Virus record (IMG/VR): IMGVR_UViG_3300036791_000774
Span: 1-21,287 of that record
Length of the DNA stretch: 21,287 bases
From: a virus
Strand: one strand, 5' to 3'
A program made the position numbers and the translations under genes. This document shows, in pieces, positions 2,173-21,287 of the stretch. The number at the start of each line of letters is the position of its first letter. The stretch's first letter is position 1. Below the pieces are notes generated by a model that saw nothing but the letters and a program-made list of their open reading frames with translations, was not told the DNA's origin and ran no database searches.

Positions 2173-2433
2173 ATGTCAACTACTGTCCCGGTGTGGACGT
2201 TGGGCGACCGGCTCCGTAAGGCCCGGCTGATGGCCGGCCTGCATCAGCGTGACGTGGCCGAGTACCTGGGCCTGTCGAGCGGCGCCGTCGGCATGTACGA
2301 GATGGACGTGCGGACCCCGAAGCTAGGTGTCCTCCGGTTGTGGGCCATGCGCTGCGGGGTGCCGCTCGAGTGGCTTCAAACCGGCCAGGTCGACCCCACG
2401 TCAACCGGATGGTTTAACGCGGTGGCGGCATGA
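2173..2433 (+). CDS. XRE-family transcription regulator (86 aa)
   Basis: The ATG at 2173 is chosen because the HTH begins soon after it and a -10-like element lies directly upstream. The longer upstream frame crosses the divergent promoter. Residues 10-62 form a Cro/CI-type helix-turn-helix: LGDRLRKARLMAGLHQRDVAEYL, then GLSSGAVGMYEMDVRTPKL. No oligomerisation or peptidase domain follows. The protein ends FNAVAA, a hydrophobic and alanine tail somewhat like ssrA/ClpXP degrons (speculative). It is the first gene of the rightward lysogeny operon and overlaps the next gene by ATGA. It is a likely phage repressor or co-regulator of the divergent promoter. Confidence 0.85.
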   Translation: MSTTVPVWTLGDRLRKARLMAGLHQRDVAEYLGLSSGAVGMYEMDVRTPKLGVLRLWAMRCGVPLEWLQTGQVDPTSTGWFNAVAA

Positions 2434-2807
2434 GCGGCGCGTTCCTCGACGCGGCCATGGTGTCCCGGTGCCTCCGGGCCATGTCCCGGCGTGTCGGCGA
2501 TGGCGACGTGGCTGCCCTAGAGGAATTTGATCGTCTCCGCCATGAGCTAGACGGCCACATTCTCGACGCCGTCACCCGGCTACGGGCCGAGCCGTGGTGC
2601 TACAGCTGGCGTCAGATCGGTATCGCGTTGGGTGTCACCCCCCAGGCCGCGGCCCAACGCTTCGTGAAGGCCCGCGGCGCCCCCGGAGCCCGAAAGCCGG
2701 GCGGGCAACCCCTCGACCCGGTCCGGTCCCTGGACCCGATTTGGCATCAAGGCGACGTTGATGCCAACCGACGGAAAGACGTCCCGCCGGGCGGAGACCC
2801 CATCTAG
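2430..2807 (+). CDS. HTH regulator with candidate attP inside its 3' end
   Basis: This 125-aa protein starts at an ATG overlapping the XRE stop. The N-terminal half is helical (AALEEFDRLRHELDGHILDA). A helix-turn-helix follows at about residues 59-81 (YSWRQIGIALGVTPQAAAQRF), similar to sigma-like or MarR-like HTHs found beside integrases in actinobacterial elements. After residue 82 the tail is Pro/Gly/Asp-rich and appears disordered. A perfect 10-7-10 inverted repeat (2741-2767) covers codons 104-113, so integration at this site would replace roughly the last 15-20 residues. The stop is followed by the integrase ribosome-binding site. It could be the true immunity repressor or an activator of the integrase; the HTH call is moderately firm. 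Confidence 0.78.
   Translation: MSGAFLDAAMVSRCLRAMSRRVGDGDVAALEEFDRLRHELDGHILDAVTRLRAEPWCYSWRQIGIALGVTPQAAAQRFVKARGAPGARKPGGQPLDPVRSLDPIWHQGDVDANRRKDVPPGGDPI
2741..2767. other. Candidate attP core: 10-7-10 inverted repeat
   Basis: TTGGCATCAA (2741-2750) and TTGATGCCAA (2758-2767) are exact reverse complements separated by GGCGACG. Two inverted arms of about 10 bp around a 7-bp spacer match the core-site layout used by tyrosine recombinases, in which the spacer is the strand-exchange overlap. The site ends 55 bases upstream of the integrase start. No T-run follows, so it is not an intrinsic terminator. A regulator-binding operator is the main alternative. Confidence 0.5.
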
Positions 2808-2811
2808 GAGG
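2806..2811 (+). promoter_or_regulatory. Ribosome-binding site of the integrase
   Basis: AGGAGG overlaps the last bases of the HTH gene stop and lies 11 bases before the GTG at 2823. It fixes that GTG as the integrase start. It is one of the few strong Shine-Dalgarno sequences in the window. Confidence 0.75.
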
Positions 2812-2822
2812 TTTCCGACCCC

Positions 2823-3671
2823 GTGCTGCTCACTGACGCCGTCCCCGCCTACCTTGCCGACCGTCTCGCCCGCGGCGAGCTTCGTCCCAACAGTGTCCAT
2901 CAGGTCCGTTGGCGTCTCAGCGTGCTGGTAAAGGCGTGCCCGCCCGGTCTGCACCTCGCCGACCTGGACCGCTACCATGTCGCCGCCTGGCAGGCGGCCA
3001 TGGTCGAACAGCGGCCGGCGACGCGGCGGGCGGGCGTGTCGGCGGTACGGACGTTCTGCCGATGGGCGCAGGCCGAGGGCCTGCTGGAGGGCGACCCGAC
3101 CGCCAGGGTGGGCCGGGTGGTCGAACCGAGACGGGACACCCGGGCGCTGTCGGCGGGCAAGGTAGCCCGCCTGCAGTTGGTGCTACCGGATCTGCGGGCG
3201 CAGGTGATCGTGGCCTTGATGTTCGGGGTGGGGTTGCGCTGCTGCGAGGTGGCCCGCCTCCACGTGGACGACTACGACGGCGACCCAGACGGCCCGCAGG
3301 TGCGGGTGGTCGGCAAGGGCGACCATGAGCGGCGAGTGCCGGTACCGTTGGCGGTAGCCGCCGTCCTCGACGACTGGTTGGCCGACCGGGGCCGGGGTCC
3401 GCTGGTGGGCCTGTCGGCGGCTCGCCTGTCGGTGCTGGTGTCGGGTTGGATGGACCAGGCCGGGCTGAAGCGGCGGGCCTATGACGGTGTGTCCGCCCAC
3501 GCCCTGCGGCATACGTTCGCCTCGGACGTTTTGGACCGCTGCGGGAACGTGCGGGTCGCCCAGGCGCTGCTGGGTCACCAGTCGCTGGCGACCACGCAAA
3601 GGTATCTGCGGGTGGCGTCCATGGACCAGATGAGAGCCGCCGCCGACCCGGACTGGCCGCCCGCCGCCTAG
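2823..3671 (+). CDS. int: Tyrosine integrase
   Basis: This 282-aa phage integrase (XerC/D-like, without a long arm-binding domain) starts at a GTG behind AGGAGG. Residues 1-90 form the SAM-like core-binding domain (YLADRLARGEL, TRRAGVSAVRTFCRWAQ). The catalytic domain has the full set of active-site residues: Arg139 (GVGLRCCEVARL), Lys165 (GKGDHERRVPVP), His226 and Arg229 (HALRHTF), His252 (LLGHQSLATTQRY) and the nucleophile Tyr261. It recombines phage attP with a host attB. The best attP candidate lies just upstream at 2741-2767, and a likely excisionase is encoded at 1920-2099. Its TAG overlaps the stop of the opposing 37-aa ORF (shared CTAG), leaving no room for a terminator. Confidence 0.95.
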   Translation: MLLTDAVPAYLADRLARGELRPNSVHQVRWRLSVLVKACPPGLHLADLDRYHVAAWQAAMVEQRPATRRAGVSAVRTFCRWAQAEGLLEGDPTARVGRVVEPRRDTRALSAGKVARLQLVLPDLRAQVIVALMFGVGLRCCEVARLHVDDYDGDPDGPQVRVVGKGDHERRVPVPLAVAAVLDDWLADRGRGPLVGLSAARLSVLVSGWMDQAGLKRRAYDGVSAHALRHTFASDVLDRCGNVRVAQALLGHQSLATTQRYLRVASMDQMRAAADPDWPPAA

Positions 3672-3781
3672 GTGACCAGCCACCTCACGGCCAGGTAGAC
3701 CAGCTCGGCGGCGGCGCCGGCCCCGAAGCCGATGGCCGCCCACACCGCCAGGATGGCGAGGCGCTGTTTACGGTCGCTCAG
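3668..3781 (-). CDS. Tiny one-helix membrane protein (37 aa), likely CTG start
   Basis: The frame reads LSDRKQRLAILAVW followed by a hydrophobic Gly/Ala-rich stretch and a short ELVYLAVRWLVT end, giving one transmembrane helix after a basic N-terminus. It follows the TAA of the 29-aa ORF directly, and the first possible start is CTG at 3781. No ATG, GTG or TTG occurs before residue 13. It is the last gene of the leftward train, and its stop overlaps the integrase stop. It fits the cluster of small membrane proteins that follows lysins and may be a holin or antiholin. The odd start codon keeps confidence moderate. Confidence 0.5.
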   Translation of the reverse strand: MSDRKQRLAILAVWAAIGFGAGAAAELVYLAVRWLVT

Positions 3782-21173: not shown

Positions 21174-21287
21174 GCCGCCCAGCCCTGGCCGGCTAGGACT
21201 CTTTCGGCGACGGCCTCCTGGGTGGCGATAGACGCCTGGTCGGGCCTACCTTGCCCGCCGTAGGCCCGCCAGGTCGACAACGAGAAT
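21140..21287 (-). CDS. Rpf-like transglycosylase, C-terminal part (continues from 1-478)
   Basis: From the right end the frame reads [15 protein letters not shown], then EAVAERVLAGQGWAAWP and NTSRMCGL, ending at TAG 21142-21140. Codon phase matches the left-end fragment exactly when bases 1 and 21214 are taken as the same position. The circular gene therefore encodes 183 residues. The end contains Cys181, a likely disulfide partner. The VRR-NUC gene starts inside this gene in another frame. The first residues differ from the left copy (Leu instead of Met at residue 138). Confidence 0.88.
   Translation of the reverse strand, partial: FSLSTWRAYGGQGRPDQASIATQEAVAERVLAGQGWAAWPNTSRMCGL
21214..21287. 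repeat. Right copy of the 74-bp terminal overlap
   Basis: This repeats bases 1-74 with a two-base difference (ac for ta at the seventh and eighth last-but-six positions, 21280-21281). It closes the genome into a circle of 21213 unique bases. The variant gives the residue more common in Rpf domains (LQFSLSTW). Confidence 0.9.

Follow-up and report, generated by a model that had tools for sequence, protein, structure and literature searches.

The locus analysed here raises the question of whether its phage ties immunity to integration and, if so, which gene carries the attachment site. Integration-dependent immunity is established in the mycobacteriophages BPs and Brujita and in clusters G, I, N and P (PMC4557955, PMC9635641), and it is widespread in Gordonia phages (PMC5559632). 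For the window, i.e. the whole stretch of 21,287 nucleotides of viral DNA that was analysed, a preliminary description had proposed such a system, with attP in a perfect inverted repeat inside an HTH gene directly upstream of the integrase gene.

Gene order and the inverted repeat

According to the ORF list and searches with Pfam and PHROG profiles, the cassette consists of an excisionase-like gene on the minus strand followed by rep, HTH2 and int on the plus strand. The excisionase-like HTH_17 gene (1920-2105; Pfam HTH_17, 3.2e-10; phrog_66 excisionase, 2.9e-9) is divergent from rep and occupies the position of the 'excise' gene in EricDab and of an excisionase-like gene adjoining rep in the G376 prophage described below. 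The rep gene (2173-2433) encodes a predicted immunity repressor of 86 aa (HTH_3, 2.7e-11; phrog_2328 transcriptional repressor, 1.9e-19) with the C-terminus ..PTSTG-WFNAVAA. In a tblastn search it matches repressors of cluster P phages, among them Phayonce gp33, and its product is 46% identical over 70 aa to that of the rep truncated in the G376 prophage. The start of HTH2 (2430-2807), which encodes an HTH DNA-binding protein of 125 aa (phrog_686, E 0.0011), overlaps the rep stop by 4 bp. Its nearest relative is the homologue in L020 (57% over residues 6-124), and it is 49% identical to GMA5 orf18 (gene 18) over residues 8-78. The int gene (2823-3671, GTG start) encodes a tyrosine integrase of 282 aa ending in ..DWPPAA (Phage_integrase, 4.7e-19; phrog_1 integrase, 2e-36), which is 84% identical to that of L001, about 54-59% to those of L101-L109 and 54% to that of L020. 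The rep gene thus lies immediately 5' of int and is co-directional with it, HTH2 intervening, which is the arrangement looked for in integration-dependent immunity. Scans for sigma-70 promoters and terminators between 1900 and 3000 detected none.

Two further features of the window were noted. Positions 1-66 recur exactly at 21214-21279, with the sequences diverging afterwards, which probably reflects a genome that is circular or has terminal repeats and was slightly misassembled at its end. The final 50 bp of int (3621-3670) are identical to L001 3801-3850, compared with 81% in the rest of the alignment; an att site in this stretch was weighed and rejected, as the prophages show otherwise.

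The inverted repeat was found exactly as it had been described. It reads TTGGCATCAA-GGCGACG-TTGATGCCAA at 2741-2767, a feature without strand, with arms complementary at 10/10 positions and a spacer of 7, and it occupies codons 104-113 of the 125-codon HTH2 ORF, 55 bases before the GTG start of int. The homologues are also consistent with an unstructured HTH2 tail after residue 82, since their conserved domain stops near residue 80 and conservation does not extend into the tail. The repeat is the only dyad with arms of at least 10 and a spacer of 7 in the 21-kb window, where dinucleotide shuffles give an expectation of 0.08 for this class, and a perfect dyad with arms of at least 10 and any spacer of 3-12 occurred within 2430-2822 in 1.3% of shuffles. 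By these figures alone the repeat is moderately unlikely to have arisen by chance; with the comparative evidence added, it is clearly not a chance product. A search for its exact 10-7-10 arms in viral contigs gave no further match.

The repeat and the HTH2 family

The comparison of relatives showed that the repeat does not follow the integrase. It is absent from the Int-family relatives L001, L101-L108 and L111-L114 and from the G376 and G892 prophages, and the two prophages have neither an HTH2 match nor a TCAA-N7-TTGA site. L001, despite its similar Int, lacks both HTH2 and the repeat. Among the Int relatives L101-L116, HTH2 and the palindrome stand beside int only in L109, which is the same contig as L020. 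This HTH2 carrier also accounts for the single TCAA-N7-TTGA occurrence in 235 kb of Int-family loci, compared with 70 occurrences in 315 kb of HTH2 loci. In GMA5, HTH2 is accompanied by a palindrome, GGTGTCAA-N7-TTGACACC, and the sister phage GRU3 has neither. Since the repeat is missing from relatives that keep the integrase, an outcome that the preliminary description had itself named as refuting, the proposal that it is attP is contradicted.

The repeat belongs instead to a palindrome that accompanies HTH2. For this comparison, 46 non-redundant, well-scoring HTH2 loci were used, and sites were counted within -180 to +150. TGTCAA-N7-TTGACA adjoins HTH2 in 35 of them, as would be expected of a cognate operator, and always with a spacer of 7; other spacers occur in 0 or 1 of the 46 loci, and apart from the true arm, none of 180 permuted arms was found in more than 7. 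The density of the palindrome is 1.39 per kb near HTH2 compared with 0.057 per kb in the remainder of these loci, and all ten HTH2 loci of named phages besides the window carry it near the gene with at most 2 mismatches. Most sites of the family precede the HTH2 domain by 10-120 bp, and some have a TANNNT-like (-10-like) spacer such as TAGAGT a few bases before the HTH2 ATG (Toulouse, Noely). This position, together with the -10-like spacers near the start codon, suggests that HTH2 may regulate its own expression in phages with an upstream site. Tandem palindromes of this type, 17-46 bp apart, were observed upstream of HTH2 in L049, L051-L053, L056, L092, L097, L061 and L011.

The window site, CATCAA-N7-TTGATG, has two departures from the consensus in each arm, four in all. 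Its assignment to HTH2 rests on the spacing, the TCAA/TTGA core, the position, its likeness to the L020 site (TCAAGGCGAC[G/C]TTGA; TCAAGGCGACCTTGA in L020 vs TCAAGGCGACGTTGA in the window) and a covariation seen in two cases. The recognition helix reads (T/S)RQAA in nearly all HTH2 proteins, and G2 of TGTCAA is invariant in the sites counted (39/39). The two homologues with Pro in place of Arg are the window protein (TPQAA) and that of L098 (SPQAA), whose sites read CATCAA and CCTCAA, so that the G is lost in both. Such a loss would classically be read as that of an arginine-guanine contact, and the two cases suggest covariation between helix and operator. The absence of the repeat where HTH2 is absent, the presence of the palindrome where it is present and the loss of G with the change from Arg to Pro make it very likely that 2741-2767 is a binding site of HTH2.

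The phrog_686 proteins of Maggie and Toulouse (gene 19-20), NBR1, KYD2 and Noely resemble HTH2 in their domain and in the class of palindrome with a 7-bp spacer. They differ in the (T/S)RQAA helix, compared with TPQAA in the window, and in the location of the site, which in those phages is upstream of HTH2 and in the window in the 3' end of HTH2 before int. The site is in or just past the 3' end of HTH2 and before int in GMA5, L020 and L070 as well. Since it lies upstream of HTH2, inside the rep tail, in PensacolaC28, which has the order rep, HTH2, int, control of int by HTH2 is not universal, and the role of the site in the cassette may differ between phages. The tyrosine integrase of PensacolaC28 (L015) is annotated as two ORFs (2865-3110 and 3166-3741) beside an intact rep and HTH2, and looks broken.

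Two other explanations of HTH2 and its site were considered. The first is that they form a passenger module between rep and int without a role in lysogeny, in keeping with the lack of HTH2 in the closest Int relatives and with homologues in phages without an immunity system, as for Maggie (PMC5559632). However, the site between the HTH2 domain and int in the window, GMA5, L020 and L070 suggests adaptation to the cassette, and we regard a mere passenger as unlikely. The second takes the repeat for a recombination site or an accessory site of the Int reactions, in which HTH2 would have an architectural or directionality role rather than act on a transcriptional operator. Although no more than roughly 150 bp separate the repeat from int downstream of it in these four phages, the majority of HTH2 sites immediately precede HTH2 in phages without an adjacent int, and the -10-like spacers of some fit autoregulation. 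This explanation therefore appears quite improbable compared with an operator bound by HTH2.

A candidate attP core at the 3' end of rep

The part of the cassette that does follow int is the 3' end of rep. The rep bodies of the window and L001 are only remotely alike, and the L001 body is 76% identical to that of L020 over 91 residues. The rep 3' ends of the window (2397-2433) and L001, in contrast, agree at 32 of 37 positions (86%) and at 15 of 15 in GTCAACCGGATGGTT (2400-2414, plus strand). As L001 resembles L020 in the body and the window in Int and in the DNA of the 3' end, the rep 3' end segregates with int. The family core, TC[TA]ACC[AG][AG]ATGG, corresponds to 2401-2412. TCAACCGGATGGTT is found in L108 as well, TCTACCAAATGG is present in L020, L101-L104, L106, L107, L111-L113, L143 and L145, and L105 and L114 have the core with one mismatch, in L114 at the first base. 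The core is thus in frame at the 3' end of rep in about 17 phages of this Int family (the window, L001, L020/L109, L101-L108, L111-L114, L143 and L145), and the rep bodies that precede it are of at least five unrelated types. L112 and L113 share the tail but differ in the body, and L111 and L112 share the body but differ in the tail, which indicates a mosaic breakpoint at the core.

The core encodes STKW, STRW, STGW or PTKW, followed by a tail with -AA at its end in almost every case (-AVAA in the window; -AAA, -VAA or -LAA in relatives), and the Trp is invariant in every rep of the Int family that was read. In the window this is W80, whose TGG codon (2410-2412) begins the ssrA-like tail WFNAVAA (2410-2430, plus strand) and is predicted to become TGA on integration. 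The rare codons TCT, AAA and AGA are conserved within the core, which indicates that the constraint acts on the DNA. The shared core points to an attP of the window within the 3' part of rep. A tRNA search of the window found none, and on reading the rep 3' end no T-arm like those of GMA5 or Phayonce was seen.

Several palindromes were observed in or near the rep genes of other phages. Long palindromes with short centres lie inside rep, just upstream of a tRNA-like attP core, in L004 (GMA5, 2365-2396), L005 (GRU3, about 2051-2074), L006 (2135-2156) and L007 (2853-2872); that of GMA5 is CACGCCCCGTCACCGGATGGTGACGGGGCGTG, with a 14-4-14 structure. ACCGGATGGT is common to GMA5, GRU3 and the core of the window. 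In L001, a palindrome GGGGTTGC-N3-GCAACCCC (2417-2435) between divergent HTH genes is likely the operator of the switch of that phage.

Actinomycetota genomes were searched with an Int alignment, by which G376 and, in the order to which it belongs, G892 were found. The G376 prophage (39 kb), whose Int is only 43% identical to that of the window, splits a host gene that we take to be dtd from its tblastn match to a dtd query sequence. The 5' part lies at 873.96-874.2 kb and the 3' part at 834.7-834.95 kb, and the reading frame is uninterrupted again when the host flanks are joined. In the prophage, rep ends in ..GGSPTA with a TGA completed by host DNA, whereas the joined viral form ends in ..GGSPTAWNDDRPGQVLAFRRLAA before its stop; the missing rep tail is at the other end, before int. 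The G892 prophage (37.3 kb) is bounded by 21-bp direct repeats, GGCCGGTGGTGGGTCTCGTTG, at the 3' end of a gene that presumably encodes a histidine phosphatase, as named from its sequence rather than by a profile search. Its rep ends in ..GAAGGGSR in the prophage and in ..GAAGGGSRWNATRIAAVMPLHSDVAA in the joined form, each followed by a stop. attB could be reconstructed for both relatives. In both, the recombination point is at the same position as the core of the window, and recombination swaps TGG (Trp) for TGA (stop) and removes the -AA tail, which explains the invariant Trp of the phage cores. On the G761 contig, an unsplit rep (..PGSWCTPQSLKPAA and a stop) adjoins int. The integrases of the window (at 3657-3668), G376 and G892 themselves end in -AA (PPAA, DYAA and RSAA), which may be an ssrA-like proteolysis signal, by analogy with the C-terminal signal reported for BPs Int (PMC4557955).

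The search of host genomes that had been suggested in the preliminary description thus revealed repressor trimming in two relatives, with junctions in rep and not in the repeat, but neither a prophage nor an attB of the phage of the window was found in the genome scans. Among about 85,000 genomes scanned for the integrase, a two-sequence alignment gave no hit and a three-sequence alignment gave one distant Rhodococcus Int. Searches for the TCTACCAAATGG-type core in Actinomycetota returned matches at chance level (22-mer with at most 3 mismatches in 397 genomes; 13-mer in 247 genomes), and the four 13-mer matches lie outside tRNA genes and have no gene in common. These queries ended in TGG; for attB the expected ending is probably TGA, and it may have no more than about 6-7 bases in common with the core, as in G376.

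It could be argued that the core at the rep tail is kept only as a degron of the protein (STKW..AA) and not as attP, since the motif is in frame and the -AA tail is conserved in the protein. This is very unlikely, because synonymous positions are conserved, the core varies by single bases across codons (AAA, AGA, GGA) and two prophage junctions fall exactly at it. An attP in the repeat, with integration trimming the C-terminus of HTH2, is hardly tenable: the 7-base spacer is reminiscent of a tyrosine-recombinase overlap region, the repeat adjoins int and the HTH2 tail is unconserved, but it is missing in many phages of the same Int family, is found in HTH2 phages without a nearby integrase (Noely, Corgi, KYD2, NBR1, Toulouse), lies outside HTH2 in L020, is absent from G376 and G892 with their junctions in rep, and the published attP of GMA5 has a tRNA-Lys core (PMC5559632).

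Proposed mechanism and related systems

We consider it highly probable that this cassette confers integration-dependent immunity, with attP in the last codons of rep and the repeat as a site of HTH2. The mechanism suggested in the preliminary description is supported for the Int family by the two prophages, while gene and site have to be moved from the repeat in HTH2 to the rep core at about 2400-2414. Similarly, the repressor, for which the HTH protein or the pair of HTH proteins had been proposed, would be the product of the adjoining HTH gene rep and not HTH2.

In the free phage, the 86-aa Rep would carry the ssrA-like tail -FNAVAA and be degraded; by analogy, the C-terminal -AA tail may serve as the degron of the viral form. 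Int would recombine the core with a host site and join the TGG codon of W80 to host DNA. If TGG becomes a TGA stop as in the two family prophages, a stable, tagless Rep of 79 aa ending in ..PTSTG would result. Integration would leave HTH2 and int at the opposite end of the prophage. Given the location of the site, after the HTH2 domain and before int, HTH2 bound to 2741-2767 would probably regulate transcription that reads into int or starts at a promoter within it. Both the proteolysis of the tagged form and the direction of the effect of HTH2 on int are what we infer here. A more tentative extension, to which we give somewhat less than an even chance, is that HTH2 alone governs int once integration has parted int from the rep promoter, and that conversion of Trp to stop at non-tRNA sites is what arms the repressor.

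Compared with systems of the BPs and Brujita type, rep and int are likewise adjacent and co-directional, the (candidate) attP is in the 3' end of rep, the viral form has an ssrA-like tail, and the prophage form is truncated, as seen in the relatives. The site of the window differs in not being tRNA-like, and those of the relatives are at dtd and at a histidine-phosphatase gene; further differences are truncation through an invariant Trp that becomes TGA (relatives) and HTH2 between rep and int (window). GMA5 is an accepted case of integration-dependent immunity with gene 18, an ORF of no known function, between repressor and int, and its attP lies inside the repressor gene and not in gene 18 (PMC5559632). 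It shares with the window the order rep, HTH2/gene 18, int, the homology of HTH2 to gene 18 and a palindrome of its own (8-7-8, TGTCAA-N7-TTGACA) in the 3' end of gene 18. Unlike the window, with its CATCAA-N7-TTGATG operator, it has a 37-bp tRNA-Lys attP core, and its Int is about 31% identical. For the Bifidobacterium prophages Bb423phi2 and 689b-1, the viral repressor form was reconstructed in silico (PMC6109161). As in the relatives of the window, this form has a C-terminal tagged tail that is missing from the prophage form, but these are other phages with another att site. Neither a binding site of gene 18 nor a Trp-to-stop rule was described in the literature searched, which did not include the original 2013 paper (Broussard et al.). 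The cassette would represent a known mechanism in a new lineage, with an additional regulator that carries its own predicted operator.

These results would place integration-dependent immunity in an uncultivated actinophage lineage, in relatives of which the prophage junctions can be read directly at protein-coding genes. They suggest a simple rule by which a change from TGG to TGA at the crossover arms the repressor, and they give the phrog_686 HTH proteins a specific predicted DNA site. The mosaic comparison of the parts that travel with int and those that travel with HTH2 provides a cheap means of locating attP without a host.
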